DNA from: an uncultured Anaerolineae bacterium
GTDB lineage: Bacteria > Chloroflexota > Anaerolineae > JACIWP01
Length of the DNA stretch: 62,985 nt
Direction of reading: 5' to 3'
Assembly: GCA_938049385.1 (NCBI GenBank)
Contig: CALIBQ010000052.1
Span: 1-62,985, forward strand
Numbering within the stretch: position 1 is the stretch's first letter; each line of letters begins with the position of its first letter. The notes beneath the pieces were generated by a model. The model saw only the letters and a list, made by a program, of their open reading frames with translations, did not search any database and was not told the DNA's origin. Below are positions 18,597-62,717 of this stretch, piece by piece. A program made the translations under genes and the position numbers.

Positions 18597-20906
18597 TCAA
18601 TGTTCTTTGCGCAGTTTGAGCAGTGCGAAAATGCCGAGTGCGGCGACCGATAGTACGGTGATTTCTCCCAGGGTGTCGAAGCCGCGAAAATCCACCAGGA
18701 TGACATTCACAACATTGCGACCCTTGGCCAGGTCAAGGCTGTGGGCGGCGAAGTACGGCGCCAGATGTGACTGGAAGGGGCCGGCTACAGCGGCGAGCAC
18801 GAGCAGGGACATCATGCCGCCGGCGAGCAGTGCCACCAGCGCGTCACGGATGCGCGCCGGCGTGCTGGACAGCAGCGCGAAACGCGGCAGGCGGTAAATC
18901 ACCAGCACGAACAGGATGACTGTCAGTGTCTCAATGGCGAACTGGGTCATTGCTAGATCAGGTGCACTGAAAAGGATGTAGAGCAGGGCGACACCGTATC
19001 CCACCGTGCCCATGGCGGCAATGGCCGCCAAGCGCGAGCGGGTGGTGACCGCCATGATGGTGGCGAGGATAATGATGCCGGCGATCACGCCCTCGTGAAC
19101 GAGGATATCGAGTTTGCTCTCGGTTGTCACTGTTGGCAATCCGGGCATGAACAGAGTGTATCCCACCAACCCGATAGTGGTAGCGACAATGGTCAGCAGG
19201 TAATACCGGAGATAGCCATTCTGGAGCAAGCGGGTCTGTGCGCGCGCCAGCTTGTTCAGCCCGACCAGCCCAAGTTCATACAGCCGCTGAGGGCTGATAC
19301 GGCTGGTGGTCTGCAACAGCCAGGCGCGCCAGTTCTCTCGGAACCAGAGGTCATGGCTGAGGAAAAGGCCGACGCCGGCGATGACAGTGATCACGCTCAG
19401 GCCGAAAACGGGATTGATGCCGTGCCAGAGCTTCAGTTCCACAGAGGTGATCTCCGGCTGGACGGCGTTCACCGCGGCGGTAATCAGAGGATTTACGAGA
19501 ACGTCTGGCCATAGGCCGTTGAACAATCCCCAGCCGGCCAGGACGAGCGGGCCAATCCAAAGCGCTGGTGCAACCTCGTGTGCATGTTGTAGCGTAGTAT
19601 GGCGCTTGCTGAAGAAGGGCTTGACACCCACAATGCCGGCCACACCTACCAGTGCAACGTTAGCCAGGATGCCAAGGGTAGTGATTAATTCGGACGCGCG
19701 TGGGGCCTGGAGTTTGGCCTCGTACAGCAGTTCCTTGTTGATAAATCCGAGCATGGGCGGAAAGCCGGCCATGGAAAGGGCGGCCAGGACTGCGGCGGTT
19801 GCTGTGATGGGCATAGCTCTGGCCAGTCCGCCAAGCTGGGTGATATCCCGAGAGCCGGCGGCGTGGTCCACAGCGCCGGCGACCAGGAAAAGCGCCCCTT
19901 TGTACAGCGCATGGACTAGCAAGAACACCATCGCCGCTTTTATGGATAGCGAGGTGTCCAGCCCAATAAGCAGTACGAGTGTCCCCAGTGTGCTGACGGT
20001 GGAATACGCCAGGATGCGCTTCAAGTCGGTTTGCCAGAGGGCGAGGACTGCGCCGATCACCATAGTGACGGCGCCGGCGGTCGTCACTAGATAGTGCCAG
20101 GCCTCAGTGCCGCCGAGGACCGGGCCGAGCCGGACGAGCAGATATACTCCAGCCTTCACCATCGTCGCAGAATGCAGGTAGGCACTGACAGGTGTGGGGG
20201 CTTCCATGGCGCCCGGCAACCAAAAATGGAAGGGTACCTGGGCAGATTTGGTGAAGGCCCCGAGAAGGATCAGCAGTAGGATAGGTAGGTATAGGGGATG
20301 CTGGCGCACAGCGCCGCCCTGGGAGAGCAGATGGGGCAGTGCGAAAGTCCCATTGGCCTGACCTATGAGAAGAAGGCCGGCCAGCATGGCAAGGCCGCCG
20401 GCGCCGGTCACCAAGAGTGCTTGCAGTGCCGCGGCTCTGGACTGTTCCCGCTGATGGTCGAAGCCGATGAGCAGGAAGGAGCTGATGCTGGTAAGCTCCC
20501 AGAAAATGAACATGGTAATGAGGTTGCCGGCCATTACAACCCCGAGCATCGAGGCCATGAACGTCAGGATGATGGCGTAGAATCGCCCCAAGTGGGGATG
20601 GCCATGCAGGTACTCGCCGGCGTACAGGATAACGAGGGCGCCAATACCAGTAATAATGAGCGCGAACAACAGGCTCAGCCCGTCAATGAAGAAGGCCAGG
20701 TCAATACCTAGGGTAGGAATCCAGGGATAGGCAGTGTAAACTGCGTTCCCTGCAATGCATGTTCCCAGAAAGGAGGAGAAGTACAGGAACAGGCCGGCCG
20801 GGAACAGGGCCAATAACCAACCGGTGGCACCGCGTGCCAGCCGATACAGCCAGGGGGATGCTACTGCCAAGGCGAAGCCAGATAGACAGGCCAATACGAT
20901 GCTCAT
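18597..20906 (-). CDS. mnhA: Mrp/Mnh antiporter subunit A
   Basis: A 769-residue large subunit, related to NuoL of complex I, with about 20 transmembrane segments. The N-terminal antiporter core contains [16 protein letters not shown] and [21 protein letters not shown]. The C-terminal part is the MbhD/MbhE-like module, ending with the family hallmark [20 protein letters not shown]. Its ATG overlaps the stop of the CBS-domain gene by four bases, so it is translationally coupled to it. The whole A-G set is present, so the complex should be functional in Na+/H+ or K+/H+ exchange. Confidence 0.94.
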
Positions 20907-47931: not shown

Positions 47932-48774
47932 TCATTGGGACAGCATCCACTTCCGGATAAGTTCGTCCAGGAAGCCGGCGCCCCGCAGGCGGGTAAGCGC
48001 GGCGTTCAACTGGCGCGCTAGCACAGGGCTGTTGCGGCGCACCGCGATGGCATAGCTCGCCTCGGTCAGCGGCGCCCCGACGATGGTCAGGTCTTCATCC
48101 TTCCCTAAGGCTTGGTAGGCGGAGACCGCATCCACCAGACAGGCGTCCGCCTCGCCGGCCTGCACCGCTTCCAGCGCTTGCGCCGGCGATTCCATCGCCA
48201 GCACCTCGACCTGACCGTGTTCCCGCTCCAGCCGGCGGATAAAGGCATCCCCTTCCGATCCCCATTCCACCGCCGCGCGCCGGCCGACCAGGTCTTCGGG
48301 ACGCTGGATGGTGGAGGAAAGTGCTTGGGTGGTGACGAGCACCAGGCCGGCCTGGAAGTACGGTTCGGAGTAACGCACATCCTCCGTCCAAGTATAGTCC
48401 ACCGGCAGGGCGGAGATAACCGCATCGTAGCGGCCGGCGAGAAGCTGGTCGTAGAGGCTGTCGAAGCCGATATTGAGAAACTCCGCCCGCACCCCCAGCT
48501 CCGCGGCCAGCGCGTTGGCCAGGTCCACATCGAAACCGCGGATTTCGCCGCTTGCCGGGTCAATCATCTCAAAGGGTGGGAAGCTGGCATCCAAACCGAC
48601 CCGCAGTATCCCTTCGGCACGGATGCGCTCCCAGGTACGGTCGCGGGAAAGCGGCCCGCCCTGTGCCAGGAGAGACCAGAGCAGGAAGATCAGCACTGCC
48701 AGCGCCAATGCGGCGCCGGCGATCCAGCGGCGGGGCACGGCGTACCGCACGCTACGGCTCTCCTGTCCGCGCAT
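47932..48774 (-). CDS. amino-acid-type ABC transporter solute-binding protein
   Basis: A 280-residue periplasmic-type binding protein family 3 (SBP_bac_3) with an N-terminal membrane anchor (IAGAALALAVLIFLLWSLLA). The fold is clear: LRVGLDASFPPFEMID, GFDVDLANALAAELGV, YDAVISALPVDYTWTEDVRYSEPY. No permease or ATPase gene is adjacent. It overlaps the end of the upstream glycoside hydrolase gene by 23 bases. GGGAGG nine bases before the ATG at 48774 supports that start; a GTG at 48750 after AGGAG is an alternative. As an orphan it may act as a sensor or feed a transporter coded elsewhere. Confidence 0.85.
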   Translation of the reverse strand: MRGQESRSVRYAVPRRWIAGAALALAVLIFLLWSLLAQGGPLSRDRTWERIRAEGILRVGLDASFPPFEMIDPASGEIRGFDVDLANALAAELGVRAEFLNIGFDSLYDQLLAGRYDAVISALPVDYTWTEDVRYSEPYFQAGLVLVTTQALSSTIQRPEDLVGRRAAVEWGSEGDAFIRRLEREHGQVEVLAMESPAQALEAVQAGEADACLVDAVSAYQALGKDEDLTIVGAPLTEASYAIAVRRNSPVLARQLNAALTRLRGAGFLDELIRKWMLSQ

Positions 48775-49879
48775 AGCGCTGGACCTCCCAATAAATCGGC
48801 TTCGGATAGAAATCATCTGCCACGAAAGTGAAATAGTCCTGATACGTGCGGGCCGGCCGCGGGAAGCGGAAGGCCCACATCACCACCGCCTGGCACCAGT
48901 CCCATTTCTGGAGCGCCCATTCGTAGGCGGCGATGGTGTAGGCGATGCGCTGGGCCGGCCGCACCGCCTTGGACCAGCGCGGGTGGTCGTTCCAGCCGGC
49001 CTCAGTGATAATAATGGGCTTATTCCCATCCCCATTGTTCACCATGATCTCCCGAATCAGCTCGGTACGCCGAAAGTTGACCACCTCCGGGTCCGGTGGG
49101 TCCTCCGGCGGATAGACCCAGCCGTAGGCGTGGACGGCCAGGATGTCGAACCAGGGCGCGGCGCCGGCCTCGTACATGCGCTGAAGGTAAATTAGGTCGT
49201 TCATGCCGTCGGGACTGCCCTCCGGGGCCAGGGTAGGGGCCAGGGCGCCGGCCAGCACCTGGACCTCGGGATTGGCTTCTTTGGCGCGCTGGTAGGCGCG
49301 GCGGAGAAGCTCCACATAGCCGGCGGGGTCCACGTCGCGGTTGCCCCATTCATGGCGCAAATTTGGCTCGTTCCAGATAATGATGTAGTCCACACGGCCG
49401 CGGAAGTGCTCGACGAAGGCATAGACATAATCCGCGAAGTCATCGTAGCCCGCTTCATCCAGGTACAGAGCAGTGGTATCCTTTGGGCGGGCCCAATCCG
49501 GCACGAAGCCCAGGCGGGCGATGACCGTCAGCCCCTGGGCGCGGGCGTGGTCCACCACCATGTCGGCATGGTTCCAGACGAAGCGCCCTTTGGCCGGCTC
49601 ATAGTAGGCCCAGGGGAAGTATTCTACGATCCAAGGCGCGCCCATCTCCCGCACCATCTCCAGGGTGCGTTTGATCTTCCACTCCTCCACCTCATCGGTC
49701 AGGCGGGTGTGCACGCCCATTTTCGGGTTGTGGGTCTGCACGTGCTGGGCCGGCCCGATGGTGATAAGCGGTCCCCGCCAGGCACCGAACACCCATAATG
49801 CCGCCAGGATTATCACCGTCAGTATGATATACTGCCGCCGGCGGCGTATCCCTTCCAACCATCTCTCCATGGCTGTCAC
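48752..49879 (-). CDS. membrane-anchored clan GH-A glycoside hydrolase
   Basis: A 375-residue protein with a signal anchor (about residues 17-33) and a TIM-barrel hydrolase domain resembling GH39/GH5-like families. The catalytic acid/base is E171 in IIWNEPN and the nucleophile E293 in IITEAGWN; FDILAVHAYGW is also typical. The substrate is unknown. It starts at a GTG (49879) or the ATG at 49870, neither with a strong ribosome site. It is transcribed away from the membrane glycosyltransferase-like gene, which suggests that both act on surface glycans. Confidence 0.83.
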   Translation of the reverse strand: MTAMERWLEGIRRRRQYIILTVIILAALWVFGAWRGPLITIGPAQHVQTHNPKMGVHTRLTDEVEEWKIKRTLEMVREMGAPWIVEYFPWAYYEPAKGRFVWNHADMVVDHARAQGLTVIARLGFVPDWARPKDTTALYLDEAGYDDFADYVYAFVEHFRGRVDYIIIWNEPNLRHEWGNRDVDPAGYVELLRRAYQRAKEANPEVQVLAGALAPTLAPEGSPDGMNDLIYLQRMYEAGAAPWFDILAVHAYGWVYPPEDPPDPEVVNFRRTELIREIMVNNGDGNKPIIITEAGWNDHPRWSKAVRPAQRIAYTIAAYEWALQKWDWCQAVVMWAFRFPRPARTYQDYFTFVADDFYPKPIYWEVQRYARTGEP

Positions 49880-50139: not shown

Positions 50140-52863
50140 ATGCGCAAACAGCGCCGGCCGTGGGTCATCCATCTCACGGTCCTGCTCACCTATATCCTCC
50201 TGAGTGTTTTGCTGACTCTGCCGCTGGTGACCCGCTTCGCTACCCACGTGCCGGGGGACGGCGGCGACGACCCAGCCCTGGCATGGAACCTGTGGTGGGT
50301 CAAACATGCCTTGATTGACCTGGGGACGGATCCCTTCGACTGCCGCTGGATGTTTTACCCCATCGGCATCAACCTGGCCTTTTATACCCTGACTGTCCTT
50401 AACGGCATGCTGTCCATACCCCTGCAGGCCGTCTGGGGGGTGATCCCGGCCAGCAATGTGCTACTGCTGTCCTCGTTCGTGTTGGGCGCCTTTGGCGCGT
50501 ATCTGCTGGCGCTGGATCTCCTGCGCCGGCGGCTGGCCGCCTTCTCATTGCCGGCGGCGCTGGCTGGCGCGTTCCTCGCCGGCCTCATCTACGGTTTCTC
50601 CTCCAGCAAGCTTTTCTATGCCTCCCTGGGGCAGTTCAACATCGCCAGCACCCAATGGATACCGTTCTACGCCCTGATGCTGGTGCGCATGAGCCGATAC
50701 CCGCGCCGCTGGCGGTATCCTTTGCTGGCCGGCCTGTTCCTGGTGCTCCAGGCCTGGGCGGAGATGACCTTCGCCGCCTTCCTGCTGGTCTTTACCGGCC
50801 TGTACGTGCTGTGGATGGCGGTGGAAGGCGCGCGTTCCCGCAGCGCGGCCGCTTCCGCCGGCGAGATACCGCCCCGGCCGGCGGACTGGCTCCCTCGGCT
50901 GGGCGGGCTGGCTGTCCTCGGCGCGCTCTTCGTGCTGGGCATCAGTCCGATGCTGGCCGCCATGCTCCCCGACATGCGGGCGGAAGGGGATTTCTTCGTC
51001 GTCGGTTCCGGCTTTGCCGAGGCGTTTTCCAGCGATCTGCTGGGCTTTTTCGTGCCGACCCAGCTCAATCCCTGGTTCGGCTCGCTGGTCTCGCGCTTGC
51101 ATTTCCCCCATGACAAGGCCCAGCATTATTACATTGGTTACAGCGTGCTCGCGCTGGCACTGTTGGGCACGGCCGCCGGCCGGCGGCGTGCCGGCATCCG
51201 CTTCTGGGCTATCTCCGCCTTTGTCTTTTTCATCCTGACGCTGGGGCCATCCCTGCGGGTCAATGGGATGGATACCGGCATCCCGCTCCCCTTCCGCATC
51301 TTCCAGGAACTGCCTTTCTTCAAGGGCAACCGCTATCCGAGCCGGTTCGGGGTGCTGATGGTGCTGAGCCTGGGGGTGCTGGCCGGCTGGGGCACGGCAC
51401 AGCTCTGGCAGTGGATATCCCGCCGGCGGGCGCTTTTGGCGCCGGCCGCGGTTGGGTTGATCACTGCTGTCTTCATCCTTGAACACGTCTCTGTCCCGCT
51501 TCCGCTCTCGGACCTCAGCCTGCCGCGCGCCTATATGGCTTTGATGGAAGACGCCGGCGAGGAGGCGCGCGGTTCCCATCCACCGGCGCTCCTGGACCTG
51601 CCCATCGCCTGGCGCAACGGCTTCCGCATCACTGGTGTTATGCATCCCATCTTTATGTATGCCCAGTTCTACCAGACCTCTCATCATCTGCCCCTGCTGG
51701 GAGGCAATACCTCCCGCAACCCGGAGCACAAGTTCCAGTACTTCACTGAGACACCGGTGCTGAACAGCCTGATCGCCTTGGAAGGAGGACATGCCCTGCC
51801 GGCAGAGGTCATCGCCGGCGACCGAGAGGTTGCCCCCGAAGTCCTGCGCTTCCTGAACGTCCGCTACATCATGTTGCACAAGCCGACCGCCGGCGCCGTC
51901 ATGGAAGAATACGTGCGCCAGGTACTGCCGGGACAGGTCATCTATGAGGATGAAAACTATCGGCTGTATCGGGTGGAGGGCCTGTCCCCGCATCTTGCGA
52001 GGACTGTTTCCCCGCGCGATGATATCGGTCGGCTGATGTTGGGGGAGGGGTGGGGACTGCCGAATGCCGGCGGGTCGGTCTGGATGGAATCGGCACGCGC
52101 TCGTTTGCTAGCACCACTTCCTGGGGGGGATATCACTCTGCGCCTGGAGCTTCGGGCGCCGGTCTCTCAATCGGTGAGGGTGCGGGTGAGCGACTGCCAG
52201 CTGGGGGATGTAGCGGTTGGGCCGGCCTGGCAGACGCTGACCCTGGAGGTGCCGGCATCCTGCATCCGGCCGGGCGTGAGCGACATCTGGCTGGAAGCGG
52301 AGATACCTGCGGCAGTGGATGGGCGCCTGGGGCCGGCGAAACAGCGCCTCATCGGCCGCACCGGGGTCAGCTCGCCAGTACACATCACGGTGCGCAGTGC
52401 CGGCAAAGAAGTGGGGGACTTCGGCCATATCTTTGTGGACGGCAGAGATATCTCCCCCAATCGGCGAGGGTACAACCTGGCAGTACTGGATGCGGCCAGC
52501 GGAAGAGTGCTGGAAGTGGCGAACTTCGACACCCATCTGGACCCGACCGCATCCGAACGGTTGATTCGCTTTGTCGAGGGGCTACCACAGGGAGCCATTG
52601 TCGCGGCGGCGGCTATGGATGAGGCGTCCATGAATCTGAGCGAGCCGGCGGCGCAGGCGCTGGGGGCCATCGGTATGGCCGGCAGTGTGCGCGGCCGCTT
52701 TCGCTGGAGCCATGCCGCGGTGGGGGTCAAGGGCGCAGCGCCGGGTTCGGCGGCGGAGGTGCTGTCGGAGACCTGGCCGACGACCATCGCCGTTGGCGGA
52801 GGGTTCACCCGGCCGCAGGCCTATCTGGAACTGCGCACCCTTTCCTGGCAGGCGCACAAGTGA
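50140..52863 (+). CDS. GT-C/YfhO-like membrane protein with C-terminal FAM3/ILEI-like domain
   Basis: A 907-residue protein. Residues 1-450 hold about 11-12 transmembrane helices with a first extracytoplasmic loop PGDGGDDPALAWNLWW, the layout of GT-C glycosyltransferases and YfhO-like proteins. Residues 460-750 are an extracytoplasmic region ending in beta-rich sequence. Residues about 753-885 closely follow the FAM3/ILEI fold: GDFGHIFVDGRDISPNRRGY, NFDTHLD, VAAAAMDEASMNL, RGRFRWSHAAVGVKGA. In animals this fold occurs in FAM3 cytokine-like proteins and in the stem domain of POMGNT1, which binds carbohydrate. A role in building or recognising surface glycan is inferred. Confidence 0.8.
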   Translation: MRKQRRPWVIHLTVLLTYILLSVLLTLPLVTRFATHVPGDGGDDPALAWNLWWVKHALIDLGTDPFDCRWMFYPIGINLAFYTLTVLNGMLSIPLQAVWGVIPASNVLLLSSFVLGAFGAYLLALDLLRRRLAAFSLPAALAGAFLAGLIYGFSSSKLFYASLGQFNIASTQWIPFYALMLVRMSRYPRRWRYPLLAGLFLVLQAWAEMTFAAFLLVFTGLYVLWMAVEGARSRSAAASAGEIPPRPADWLPRLGGLAVLGALFVLGISPMLAAMLPDMRAEGDFFVVGSGFAEAFSSDLLGFFVPTQLNPWFGSLVSRLHFPHDKAQHYYIGYSVLALALLGTAAGRRRAGIRFWAISAFVFFILTLGPSLRVNGMDTGIPLPFRIFQELPFFKGNRYPSRFGVLMVLSLGVLAGWGTAQLWQWISRRRALLAPAAVGLITAVFILEHVSVPLPLSDLSLPRAYMALMEDAGEEARGSHPPALLDLPIAWRNGFRITGVMHPIFMYAQFYQTSHHLPLLGGNTSRNPEHKFQYFTETPVLNSLIALEGGHALPAEVIAGDREVAPEVLRFLNVRYIMLHKPTAGAVMEEYVRQVLPGQVIYEDENYRLYRVEGLSPHLARTVSPRDDIGRLMLGEGWGLPNAGGSVWMESARARLLAPLPGGDITLRLELRAPVSQSVRVRVSDCQLGDVAVGPAWQTLTLEVPASCIRPGVSDIWLEAEIPAAVDGRLGPAKQRLIGRTGVSSPVHITVRSAGKEVGDFGHIFVDGRDISPNRRGYNLAVLDAASGRVLEVANFDTHLDPTASERLIRFVEGLPQGAIVAAAAMDEASMNLSEPAAQALGAIGMAGSVRGRFRWSHAAVGVKGAAPGSAAEVLSETWPTTIAVGGGFTRPQAYLELRTLSWQAHK

Positions 52864-56600: not shown

Positions 56601-59600
56601 ATGTTGAAAAGCTTAGTGAGCAAGATCCTTGGCGACCCGAATGCCAAGGAGATCGAGCGCTTGAAACCGATCGTCGCGCAGATCAACGCTCTGGAGCCGG
56701 CGTATCAGCGCATGACCAACGAGGAACTGCGCGCCCAGACCGATATCCTGCGCGGCCGGCTGCAGAGCGGCGAGACCCTGGACGATATCCTGCCCGACGC
56801 CTTCGCACTGGTGCGTGAGGCCGCCAAACGCACCGTTGGCATGCGCCATTTCGACGTGCAGTTGATGGGCGGCATCGTGCTCCACGAGGGCAAGATCGCC
56901 GAGATGAAGACCGGCGAGGGTAAGACGCTCGTGGCGACCCTGCCCATTTATCTCAACGCGCTGACCGGCAAAGGCGTACACCTGGTGACGGTGAACGACT
57001 ACCTGGCGCGGCGCGATGCGGTGTGGATGGGCCCCATCTATCACCTGCTGGGCCTGCGCGTGGGCCTGCTCCAGCAGAGCAACAAATCGTACCTGTATGA
57101 GCCAGGGTATACCAAGAGCGAGTATAAGCATCTGCGGCCGGTGCCGCGCCGGCAGGCCTATGCCGCCGATATCACCTACGGCACGAACCATGAGTTCGGC
57201 TTTGACTATCTGCGCGATAACCTGGCCTACTCCCTGGAGGAGCAGGTCCAGCGCCCCCTCTATTACGCCATCGTGGACGAGGTGGACAACGTCTTCATTG
57301 ACGAAGCGCGCACCCCGCTCATCATCTCCGGCCCATCCGAGGAGAGCGACGAGGAATATAAGCTGTTCGCCCGCATTGCGCCCAAACTGCAGGCCGGCAC
57401 CGATTACGTGGTGGACGAAAAGGCACGCACGGTCTATCTGACTGAGGCCGGCCTGGCCCGGGTGGAGGAGATGGCCGGCATTGACAACATCTACGACCCG
57501 GTCAATCAGCGCTACGTGCACTACATGGAGCAGGCGCTGAAGGCCGAGGTGCTCTTCCGCGAGGGACGCGACTACATTATCCAGCGCGGCAGTGTTGTGC
57601 TGGTGGATGAGTTCACCGGCCGGTTGATGCCCGACCGCCGGCTGAGCGACGGCCTGCACCAGGCGCTGGAGGCCAAGCACAACTTGAAAATCCATCCCCG
57701 TCTGGTCACCCAGGCGACCATTACCATCCAGAACTACTTCCGCATGTACCCGAAGCTGGCCGGCATGACCGGCACCGCCGCCTCCGAGGCCGAGGAGTTC
57801 TACAAGATATACAAGCTCGAGGTGGTGGTGATCCCCACGCACAAACCGGTCATCCGCATTGACGCACCGGACGTGGTGTACCGCACGCGAGAGGCCAAAC
57901 TGCGCGCCATCGTGCGCGAGATTGAGGACGCGCACAAGCGCGGACAGCCGGTGCTGGTCGGCACTACGTCGGTGGAAAAGTCGGAAGAGCTGAGCAGGAT
58001 GCTCCAGGCGCGCGGCATCGAGCACGTGGTCCTGAACGCCAAGGAGCATGCCCGAGAGGCGCAAATCATCGCACGCGCCGGCGAACCGGGCCGGGTGACG
58101 GTGGCCACGAATATGGCCGGCCGCGGCGTGGACATCAAGCTGGGCGGCGAACTCACTGACGAAGTGATTCAGCAGGCGCATAAGGTCCTGCGCCAGCGCG
58201 GCATTGACCCATTCCAGGCGACGCCGGAGCAGTTCGACTCGGCCGTGGCTGAAGTGGACCCGGAATATGCCCTGCGGCGGGAGAAAGTGCTGGCCGCCGG
58301 CGGGCTGTATGTGCTGGGGACCGAGCGCCATGAGGCCCGACGTATTGACAATCAGCTTCGCGGGCGCTCCGGCCGGCAAGGGGAACCCGGCCTGTCGCGC
58401 TTCTTCCTTTCCCTGGAAGATGACCTGATGCGCCGGTTCGGCGGCGACAGCATCGCCAACCTTATGGCGCGGCTGGGCGTGGAAGACGACATGCCCATCG
58501 AACACGGCCTGGTCAGCAAGTCCATCGAATCGGCACAGATGCGGGTGGAAGGATACAACTTCGACATCCGCAAGCATCTGCTGGAATACGACGATGTGCT
58601 CAATCAACAGCGCGAGCTGATTTACAGCCAGCGCCAGCGCATCCTTACCAAGGATAACCTGTGGCCAGACCTGTGGGGCATGATTGACACCGAACTGCAG
58701 GAGCGCTTCGAGGAAGTGCGCAAGGACTCGTCTCGCCTGACGAAATGGGTGCAGTTCTACGACATCCTGATGCCCCTGCAGTTCGCTCCGGTCGAGGTGC
58801 AGAAAGGCGCAAGCCGGAAGAAGGGTGGCAAGACCGTGGCGTCTGCTACGGCGGTGGAAGTGATGCGCTATCCCTACCGCTTGGGGCAGGACCGCACCCT
58901 CTTCCCGCCGTTCAGCATCAGTTTCCTGGCAGAATATCTGGCCGGCCTGGAGCCGGCCCAGCGCCGCCCCAGCTTCCTCTCCGTGGTCCATAAGAGCCTG
59001 GAGCTGTACAACGAGGATATCGAGGAACAGTTCGTGCAAGCGGCCTTTCGCGAGGCTGTTGCAAGCTACGACGACCAGTGGGAACAGCAAAGGGAATTCC
59101 TGTCCCAGCGGGTGCAGACCTATCTGAGCATGCTGGAGGAGCGCAGCCGGCCGTTCAATCCGCGCGAGATGGTGGATCAGGTCCTGCGGGGGCTATCCAT
59201 CCGCATGGAATTCCCGCGCGACATGCGCTGGGATGGGCTTTCGTCGGAAGACGTGCAGGAGATGGTGGAATCTGCCCTCCAGCAGGCGTTCCACACCGGG
59301 GTATGCCTGCAGAGGGTAGCGGTAGTGAAGTCCGCTTTGCCGGAGCGCTACGGCCTGGACCAGGTGGGCGTCGCGGAGCTGGATGAAGGGACCCGGGAAT
59401 GGTTCGCCGGCGTCCTGCTCGCGAATGCCTATACCGATTCTGCCGCTGAGCAGTTAGAGCGTTTGCTGGAAGGGCGGAACAAGGGGCAGGGCACGTACTC
59501 GGTCCTCCAGTGGCTGAACGAAGCGCTTCCTCTGTCCCGCGTTCCCTTGGCCGACCTGGAGCAGTTTCTTGCCGGCGTGGTGCGGGGGCAGTTGACCCGG

Positions 59601-62600
59601 TGGAGCGAGCGGGTGGAGCAGGACCTGGCGGCCAGGCTCCATCTTCTCCAGGTGCCGGCAGGGCAGGACATCGTCTCCGTGGGGCAGTGGCTGTTGGATG
59701 CGCTGGCGGTGGTGGACCCGCAGGCCTACCGCCTGCTGTGGCGCGTGCCGCCGGCCTATCTGGCCGCCGCAGTGGTAAGCACCCAGTTCTCCTTGGAAGA
59801 GGCGTATGATGCCTTCCGACAACAGCTTGGACGCTGTATTACCGAGCGCCAGGCGGTCTGGGGTGAGGTGGAGCTATCCCGATATGCTCACCTGCGTCTG
59901 CGGGACCTGGAGCTGAAATACCTGGATGCCCTGGCGCGCTTCTGGGCCCTGCGAGAGCTGGAGGCGGTTGATCTAACGCCCCTGCAGTTGCCGGCGGAGT
60001 GGTACGATATCTTCGCCAAGTCGCTGATGGTCTATTCCTGGCGCGACCAACAGCTCGGCGTCTGGCCGGTGTTTGAGGAGATCGCCGGCCGCGTGGCAGA
60101 ACACCTTCCTGAGCGCCTTGACCCTCGCGGTGGAGAGCTGGACCAGCCGCTCTTCGATGCCGTAGGAGCTGAGCTGTTGGAGGCAGGGGCGTTCAATGAC
60201 CCGCGGGCTGAGGAGGAGTTCGCCGGCCGCCGGCTCTCGGAAATGCCGCGCGCAGATATCGAAGAGCTGGCCGAGTATGTCGGGGAGCAGTACTTGAATC
60301 CCCTGCGGAGCAGTGCGGTTGGCTCTCTGGAGGCTCCGCTTCAACAGCACGTCCAGCATGTCCTCCATCAGCGCGGCTATTTCCGGGACGAACGCCGGCT
60401 ACAGGAATTCCTCGTCCATCAATCCCTGAATGACCTGGGCGATGAGGAGGCGCGGCTGGTCGCTCGCGCGCTGGTGCGCCGGCAAATGGAGGAATCGCGC
60501 GGCCGCCCGGTGGAAGAGCTGGAGTACTCCCAGCGCGAGCGGGTCATCGCGGCGGTGCGCTCCGCCGGCATCGTCTTGAACGAGAGCGCCTTTGCCCCTT
60601 GGCGGGAGAAGGCGTTCGCGGACTGGGACCCGGAACTGCAGGAAGCGTTACAGCGTTCGCTGGGGGCAGTGCTGTGGCCGAGGGGCATGCCGGCCGGCTC
60701 TCTGCCCGAGGACCTGCGGGAGGCCCTCTGGCGCGAAGCCATTCAGGCCGGCCTGTTCACCGAACGCGCCCGCCTCAGCGCGTTTCAACTCTCTGCGGTG
60801 CGCGAACTGCCGCCTGATATACAGCCCGCTCTGCGGGCTTTCCTGAGCGCGCGCCTGCGGGGGCAGTTGGCCGGCCGGACGGGGCGACAGCTTCCGCCGG
60901 CGCTGTACAAGCGCCTGCGCGGTTTCCTGGAAGCGGAAGGGTATTTCCTGGACCGGGAAAAGCTGGCCCAGATGGAAAGCCGCTCCCTCTCCAGCATGGA
61001 TGGCAAGGTGGTCACCGCGGTGGAGCGGGCGGTGGGCCGGCGCATCCTGGCCGGCGCCGACCAGCGCAAGATCGCGAACCTGGACAAAGAGCTCCGCGAG
61101 AGCATCCTGCGCTATCTGGACCAGGAGAACATCTACCGCAAGCCAGACAAGCGGCGGGCGTTCCTCCAGCGCACATTATCCGAGATTGATGCTTCCCTCT
61201 ATAACGGCATTGCCCAGTACCTGGGTCGGCAGTCGCTGGCCGAGGTTCGTTCGCTACCGCTGTCCTCCCTGCCGGCGGAGCTGGCGGAGATAGTGCGGGC
61301 GGAGGCGCTGACGGCCGGCGAACTGCTGGACCGCGCCCGCCTGCGGCAGTTTGAGGAATCCCCCCTTGAGACCCTGCCGGAAGAAGCGCGTCAGTCCCTC
61401 TTGCGCTTCCTGGACGCCCAGCTTGACCAGTTCCTGAACGCGCCGCAAGAAACGGGTGAGCTGTATGAGGGCATGCTGGAGGATGTCCGGGAGTTCCTGG
61501 AGCGGCAGGGATATTTCCTGAAAGAGAACGCTTGGCAGGAATTTCAGACGCTTCAGCCTGAGCGCCTGGAAATTCCCACGCGCCAGGCCCTGTATGCGGC
61601 GCTGGGGCGGTACGTGTGGTCGCAGATTACGGATTATCCGCCGGCACAGGTGCCGCCGGCATGGCGGGCGCGTGTGGAACAGGCGGTGTATCACTGCGAG
61701 CCGTTTATTGATCGGGAGCGCGAGCAGTCGCTCCTGCGCCGGCGGTTCGAACAGTGGGAACCGGCCGAACGCCAGCGTGTGGAGGAGCGGCTGGCGGAGC
61801 GGTTGCTGGCGGAGATCGGAACGGAGCGCGTCGCCGGCCTGGGCGAGGAAATGCGTCAGTCCATCCGACAGTGTCTGGACGAACTGGCAGTCTTCCATGA
61901 CGAGCGGCGGGAACAGGCGTTACTGGAGGAGAAGCTGGGAGGACTGCGCGTCGAAGATTGGCGGGCGGTGGCACAGAGCTGGGGCATGAAACTGCTGGAA
62001 CCTTGGCTGGAGCGTCCGGTGCGGGATATGCCGGCCGACCTGCAGGAATGGGTCATACGCTATATGCGTGGCAAAGGGGCTTTCTTGGACCAGGGCCGGC
62101 GGGAAGCCTTCCGACAGGAAGGGCTGGCCAGCCTCCATGAAGATTTCCGCCGGCGCGCACTGGACTTTGCCAGGGAGTGGGACCGCGAGCGTCTGTCCAG
62201 GAGCGTGCTGGGCGATCTGCCTCTACCCCTGCGCTGGCAGGTGGAGCAGGCGGCGATCGAGGCCGCGCCGCCGGCGGAGGTCAAGCGCCTGCGGAACTAT
62301 GAGGGACAGAAGCTCAGCGATATGGATTCTGAGCTGGTGAACATGTTCCTGCGCTATATCGGCCTTCCGCATGTGCGCACACTGCTGGATGTGCCGCTGG
62401 GTGCGCTGGATGGCGAGGACCGGGTGCTGGTGCGCGATTTTCTCGGCGACCGGGTCATGCTGGAGGTTCAGCGGCGGGTGATGCTGGCATTTGTCAGCCG
62501 GCTGTGGATTGACTACCTCACCGAGATGGAAGACCTGCGGCAGGGCATCGGGCTGGAGGCGTTCGGCCAGCGCGACCCGCTGGTGGAATACAAGCGCCGA

Positions 62601-62717
62601 GCCTATCAGATGTTCCAGCAATTGATCGAATCGATCCGCCGCGCGGTGATTGAACGTGTGTTTGCGCTGGAGCCTCTGCCTTTGCAGTTGGAGCGAGCAT
62701 CGCTTTCTTCCGGGTGA
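56601..62717 (+). CDS. secA: giant SecA translocase ATPase with tandem-repeat insert
   Basis: A 2038-residue SecA (normally 800-1000), the motor driving proteins through SecYEG. Residues 1-682 are ordinary: Walker A MKTGEGKT (102-109), [16 protein letters not shown], preprotein cross-linking domain, NBD2 ([20 protein letters not shown]) and the scaffold helix ([20 protein letters not shown]). Residues 1953-2038 resume the scaffold and two-helix finger ([20 protein letters not shown]), with F1988 where E. coli has Y794 at the tip. Between them, where E. coli has about 100 residues, lie about 1,275. Of these, 683-1195 is a helical non-repeated block and 1196-1951 is twelve units of 61-64 residues. 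The C-terminal zinc motif is absent. GAGAGGAAG precedes the ATG. The frame is uninterrupted. Confidence 0.95.
   Translation: [2038 protein letters not shown]
60186..62453 (+). repeat. twelve tandem 63-residue repeats inside SecA
   Basis: Unit lengths in residues are 63, 64, 61, 63, 63, 63, 64, 63, 63, 63, 63, 63, a DNA period of about 189 bp. Each unit starts like GYFxDRxKLxxFxxxxL, then [L/M/W][D/P]xE-type turns, and has a second half resembling the first (LxxLPxELxxxVRxFL). Examples of unit starts are [48 protein letters not shown] and [12 protein letters not shown]. DNA similarity between units is low, so this is an old, protein-level repeat rather than a recent duplication. Confidence 0.85.

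Follow-up and report, generated by a model that had tools for sequence, protein, structure and literature searches.

The C-terminal domain of a 907-residue membrane protein from an Anaerolineae bacterium is a true ILEI/FAM3-fold domain, carried on a membrane part whose predicted fold is that of the GT-C glycosyltransferases. The gene lies in the window, by which we mean the whole stretch of 62,985 nucleotides that was analysed. The domain as such is already known, and the apparently new aspect is its fusion to a bacterial GT-C protein, although the Pfam model recognises these proteins. Our computations establish what the domain is and how it folds, the predicted GT-C fold, how far the sugar site is conserved and how often the GT-C fusion recurs. 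With a probability of about 60%, we read the protein as an extracytoplasmic glycosyltransferase that would use a lipid-linked sugar and carry a built-in carbohydrate-binding module positioning the glycan acceptor or product. The features discussed below are as follows.

50140..52863, + strand: gene encoding the GT-C membrane protein of 907 aa that ends in the ILEI domain (open frame; membrane-part homologues 21-56% identical)
50140..51984, + strand: predicted GT-C membrane glycosyltransferase region, residues 1-615 (AF2 pLDDT 88.5; fold matches)
50266..50268, + strand: Asp43, candidate catalytic Asp, first outer loop (invariant in 36 homologues)
52075..52305, + strand: CBM-like beta-sandwich, main part, residues 646-722 (BcsB, CBM35, CBM4 and CBM29 matches, Z 9-10.6; model strands)
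52375..52797, + strand: ILEI/FAM3/GG-fold domain, residues 746-886 (Pfam, family profile, predicted fold, Foldseek, VIA-align)
52465..52467, + strand: Arg776, equivalent of POMGNT1 Arg129, a GlcNAc contact (alignment; PMC9802357)
52618..52620, + strand: Asp827, equivalent of POMGNT1 Asp179, a GlcNAc contact (alignment; PMC9802357)
52702..52704, + strand: Arg855, equivalent of POMGNT1 Arg207, a GlcNAc contact (alignment; PMC9802357)
52816..52857, + strand: last strand, residues 893-906, probable closing strand of the beta-sandwich (model strand 257-266; CBM superpositions)

Identity and fold of the ILEI domain

PF15711 (ILEI) was the single Pfam family found in the whole protein. It matched residues 776-866 (52465-52737) with an E value of 7.6e-18 and 65.2 bits, the curated cut-off being 27 bits, and the match covered the profile completely (positions 1-90 of 90). 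The same profile was matched by all of the homologues (35/35) and by none of the 14 control genomes (14/14 without a match). A PDB search with the window protein as single sequence returned FAM3A, the POMGNT1 stem, FAM3B, TMEM2 and FAM3C with a best E value of 5e-6, and a 35-sequence family profile placed the POMGNT1 stem first (E 5e-19), followed by FAM3B, TMEM2, FAM3A and FAM3C. Both conserved ILEI glycines are present, one after the Arg and the other in the KG end; among 73 aligned bacterial ILEI domains, the Gly130 and Gly217 columns are each kept in 71/73.

The outer tail (residues 640-907) was modelled with AlphaFold2 from 35 homologues at a mean pLDDT of 94.4. Foldseek gave the POMGNT1 stem, FAM3C, FAM3B, FAM3A and TMEM2 as top PDB matches of this model. 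In VIA-align, the tail superposed on the POMGNT1 stem with Z 18.6 and 1.8 Å over 134 residues at 26% identity, and the ILEI model on FAM3A/B/C with Z 17-18, far above the rows that followed. The predicted domain thus has the beta-beta-alpha fold of FAM3/PANDER proteins, with Z 17.3-18.6 to the POMGNT1 stem and FAM3A/B/C. These results agree with the first-pass annotation, which had placed an ILEI/FAM3 domain with the FAM3 globule fold at the C terminus and had quoted motifs that are all present.

The next-best VIA-align matches were the carbohydrate-binding region of BcsB, CBM35, CBM4 and CBM29 (Z 9-10.6), and they fell on sandwich residues ~646-722. Because these CBM superpositions extend to the final residues of the tail model, the ILEI domain is probably nested in the CBM-like sandwich, ahead of its closing strand, as judged from the strand positions. 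The domain had earlier been drawn up to the last residue of the protein. Its C-terminal placement stands, but the fold spans approximately residues 746-886, and the last ~20 residues lie outside it, where the chain probably returns to the sandwich.

Sugar-contact residues and gene neighbourhood

POMGNT1 contacts beta-GlcNAc via Arg129, Asp179 and Arg207, and GlcNAc is also bound by FAM3C and C. elegans Fam3L2 (PMC9802357). All three contacts have counterparts in the window domain, namely Arg776, Asp827 and Arg855. Over the 73 bacterial ILEI domains the conservation of these positions is graded (Arg129 in 64, Asp179 in 53, Arg207 in 36), and on a tree of 91 ILEI domains, including 4 human ones, the split tracks ancestry. 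In the window's clade the triad is RDR in 30/32 domains and KDR, with Lys for Arg129, in the other 2/32, so Arg/Lys-Asp-Arg is found in 32/32, whereas RDR occurs in 0/23 domains of the sister clade. Chloroflexota YfhO-ILEI domains carry RDG in 8/8. Moreover, the Asp179 and Arg207 columns reach 100% conservation in the window's clade, where the column mean is 67%; the same columns show ordinary conservation in the sister clade.

The source genome carries one member of each clade. Beside the window protein it encodes a second ILEI GT-C protein of 932 aa (G000:C10:14549-14818(-), locus L018), in which the triad is lost and which offers a natural negative control. A third, diverged ILEI-like domain resides on an 885-aa GT-C (PTPS_related) protein of the same genome (G000:C7, locus L146 1797-4451(-)); it was missed by the Pfam model and detected with the family HMM (E 3e-15). 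An apparent ILEI-free paralogue was also seen (G000:C27), but its open reading frame is cut by the contig end.

The conserved sugar contacts, together with the repeated ILEI-GT-C fusion, fit the carbohydrate-recognition role that had been proposed for the domain at first sight. Since the sister clade, the Chloroflexota YfhO-ILEI domains and the paralogue of the same genome have lost the triad, not all members can function by binding sugar at this site. In the main rival explanation, ILEI serves chiefly for protein-protein contact or as a structural element and docks a partner glycosyltransferase, with sugar binding as a side feature kept in one clade. Persistence of the fold where the triad is lost, as in the sister clade and the YfhO fusions, is consistent with docking, and the POMGNT1 stem also binds FKTN (fukutin) (PMC8478517). 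Gene order speaks for docking in one clade and against it in the other: among loci with enough sequence, a gene for a TMEM260-like protein O-mannosyltransferase, itself of GT-C type, lies directly downstream in 8/12 loci of the sister clade but is beside the ILEI gene in 0/12 of the window's clade. In addition, the full or nearly full conservation of the sugar-site columns in the window's clade argues against docking there. Docking is favoured for the triad-lost clade, and as a general explanation we hold it to be rather unlikely.

Loci in which a TMEM260-like gene comes right after the ILEI GT-C gene (L056, L057, L058, L059, L060, L064, L066, L074, L076, L079, L082) belong mostly to the triad-lost sister clade, and the source genome has five TMEM260-like matches elsewhere. 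A gene of family-2 glycosyltransferase type is nearby in 8 loci, one of them confirmed by Pfam. In other systems, this class probably charges polyprenyl phosphate.

The neighbourhood of the window copy is not conserved, which counts against our sugar-reader reading. The gene adjoining the ILEI gene encodes a membrane-anchored glycosidase-like protein (48752-49879(-)) with weak GH35/42/39/10 matches, and a partnership with it had been suggested in the first-pass annotation. We abandoned this link: the GH-like family appears in 1 of ~90 related loci, several kb off and not adjoining the ILEI gene. Neighbouring genes for a solute-binding protein (SBP) and an M23 peptidase showed no recurrence among the ~90 related loci, and recurrence of the downstream Crp, oxidoreductase, metallopeptidase-like and PRPP-synthetase genes is confined to the same genus. 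Elsewhere, the window contains a SecA-like open reading frame of 2038 aa (56601-62717(+)), over double the typical length of SecA, with long stretches past the motor part that look repetitive, and a 769-aa Proton_antipo_M protein (18597-20906(-)) with fused MbhD and MbhE parts, an Mrp/MBH-type antiporter subunit.

Membrane part of the protein

Residues 1-655 were modelled at pLDDT 88.5 (AF2), and the best fold matches of the membrane part, which was also compared with Foldseek, were all GT-C glycosyltransferases. The Z scores were 26.2 for yeast STT3 (469 residues), 22.1 for AftD, 20.6 for PglB, 19.0 for Pmt and 17.8 for ArnT. A PDB sequence search with the membrane profile gave weak unrelated matches (opioid receptors etc.) and was set aside for the fold comparison.

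An acidic residue is expected in the first outer loop throughout the GT-C superfamily. Asp43 directly follows the first helix and is unchanged in 36/36 aligned homologues; by analogy with GT-C enzymes, we infer that it is the catalytic residue. The assignment of the membrane part as a putative GT-C glycosyltransferase is based on the predicted fold and this one invariant Asp. Given the GT-C fold matches and where Asp43 lies, the outer face of the enzyme is the most likely location of the ILEI domain.

The membrane part of the window protein matches no Pfam family, GT families included; among the 36 homologues, this part matches PMT_2 in 5 and YfhO in 1. The absence of a GT family match would suit an inactive scaffold of GT-C-like type or a protein that handles lipid-glycans, comparable to some loosely characterised PTPS-related and YfhO families, in which ILEI would sense or present glycans without helping catalysis. 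However, the invariance of Asp43 and structural matches to the active enzymes STT3, AftD, PglB and ArnT over 430-500 residues make this explanation improbable. The membrane domain had originally been described as GT-C/YfhO-like. The GT-C half of this description agrees with the predicted fold, but the YfhO half does not hold for the window protein, which shows no match to YfhO (PF09586) up to E 1, though related ILEI proteins do match that family.

Distribution and fusions

ILEI was present in 117/298 sampled genomes of the window's class, in 11/400 genomes of a phylum-wide sample and in 7/247 genomes of the phylum of one Acidobacteria-labelled genome. Scanning genome contigs yielded 53 ILEI loci, almost all in Chloroflexota MAGs. 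The fusion to a membrane glycosyltransferase anticipated by the first-pass annotation recurs widely: in the fetched loci, 74/91 ILEI open reading frames have the window-type GT-C region in frame, and the others are cut by a contig end, follow an upstream frame that holds the GT-C part, or belong to a different GT-C type. Altogether, ILEI is found on three GT-C families (window type, YfhO and TMEM260-like). This repeated fusion to outer-face glycosyltransferases, together with POMGNT1 in animals, suggests that the domain helps such enzymes with glycans, and it is our strongest argument.

In one group of YfhO-ILEI proteins the domain is placed ahead of the final YfhO segment. Since starred branches of the tree separate this group from a second one, at least two separate ILEI-YfhO fusions occurred. 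In the second group, tandem pairs of ILEI domains are carried on YfhO-type proteins, in 9/14 genomes of the phylum of the RI_285 genome (L131-L138, L147, L148), and a partial ILEI match was seen on a TMEM260-like protein O-mannosyltransferase of a Chloroflexi MAG and of a Methylomirabilota MAG (L083, L084).

The fold shared with FAM3A/B/C might suggest a secreted, signal-like role as in animal FAM3 proteins, which is very improbable. Nearly all intact copies have the domain within a large membrane protein, and most short frames either adjoin a contig end or come after an upstream frame with the GT-C part. None of the loci studied showed an intact secreted copy standing on its own.

The first-pass annotation had proposed that the module could be ancestral. 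The 4 human domains group together on the 91-domain tree (SH-aLRT 92), which rests on a short alignment with long branches; this tree does not assign them a position among the bacteria, and we claim no direction of transfer. No relatives of the window protein were found in viral_contigs, and thus there is no sign of phage spread of this version; PHROGs gave weak matches to phage tail proteins only.

Proposed mechanism and significance

According to our preferred reading, the gene product would be an extracytoplasmic GT-C glycosyltransferase that uses a polyprenyl-linked sugar or glycan as donor, with Asp43 as the putative catalytic centre. In the outer tail, the growing glycan or glycoprotein would be gripped by the CBM-like sandwich together with the sugar pocket of ILEI. 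ILEI may act like the POMGNT1 stem and hold a terminal sugar via Arg776, Asp827 and Arg855; this sugar would probably be GlcNAc-like or a different hexose. The glycan acceptor or product would then be kept near the active site, an arrangement also proposed for the POMGNT1 stem, and the membrane catalytic site would modify positions nearby on a surface glycoprotein or polysaccharide. Sugar binding, substrate and catalysis of the window protein are all inferred in this scheme.

In animals, FAM3 proteins may act as signals or as sugar readers, and POMGNT1 belongs to a muscular dystrophy pathway. The repeated finding of ILEI fused to bacterial GT-C proteins, with a triad that one clade retains and another lacks, supports the view that recognising carbohydrates is an old and general job of the domain. 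The bacterial domains are simple and soluble, and the triad-plus and triad-minus pair in one genome is natural test material for sugar recognition. The data also point to an unstudied surface-glycosylation system in Chloroflexota. In a wider and speculative version, which we regard as unlikely, glycoprotein O-glycosylation would be widespread in Chloroflexota, ILEI-GT-C proteins and TMEM260-like O-mannosyltransferases would extend or position O-linked sugars as POMGNT1 does in animals, and the animal FAM3/POMGNT1 domain would derive from the bacterial module or share its use.

Comparison with known systems

The ILEI/FAM3/PANDER/GG domain is known from FAM3 proteins, POMGNT1, TMEM2 and phage gp35 (PMC10276149). 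We found no description of a bacterial ILEI-GT-C fusion in the open-access papers that were searched. The human POMGNT1 stem (PDB 5ggf, 5ggj-5ggn) shares with the window domain the fold and the three residues that contact GlcNAc, and each is joined to a glycosyltransferase on the lumenal or outer side. However, POMGNT1 has a soluble catalytic domain of GT13 type with a one-helix anchor, whereas the window protein is a predicted polytopic GT-C enzyme, and the window ILEI domain, unlike the stem, stands at the C-terminal end, next to a CBM-like sandwich to which it is linked.

FAM3A/B/C (ILEI, PANDER) share the fold, and the Arg, Asp and Arg positions are kept in FAM3A and FAM3B; these proteins are small and secreted, whereas the window ILEI is one domain of a membrane enzyme. 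Outside animals, the same domain class occurs in the GG domain of the phage long-tail-fibre protein gp35 and in CBM_1 of phage TP-778L Tal. The latter is POMGNT1-stem-like and predicted to bind carbohydrate, with Arg129 and Asp179 kept (PMC9437275). Both phage proteins are structural and have no glycosyltransferase, unlike the window protein.

The solved GT-C enzymes STT3/PglB/AglB, AftD, Pmt and ArnT have in common with the window protein the predicted membrane fold, an outer C-terminal soluble region and an Asp after the first helix, at ~10-13% sequence identity. To our knowledge, none of these enzymes carries ILEI. TMEM260-like protein O-mannosyltransferases (PF11028, a family without a match in the window protein) are likewise of GT-C type; some bacterial members carry a partial ILEI match, and others adjoin ILEI-GT-C genes.
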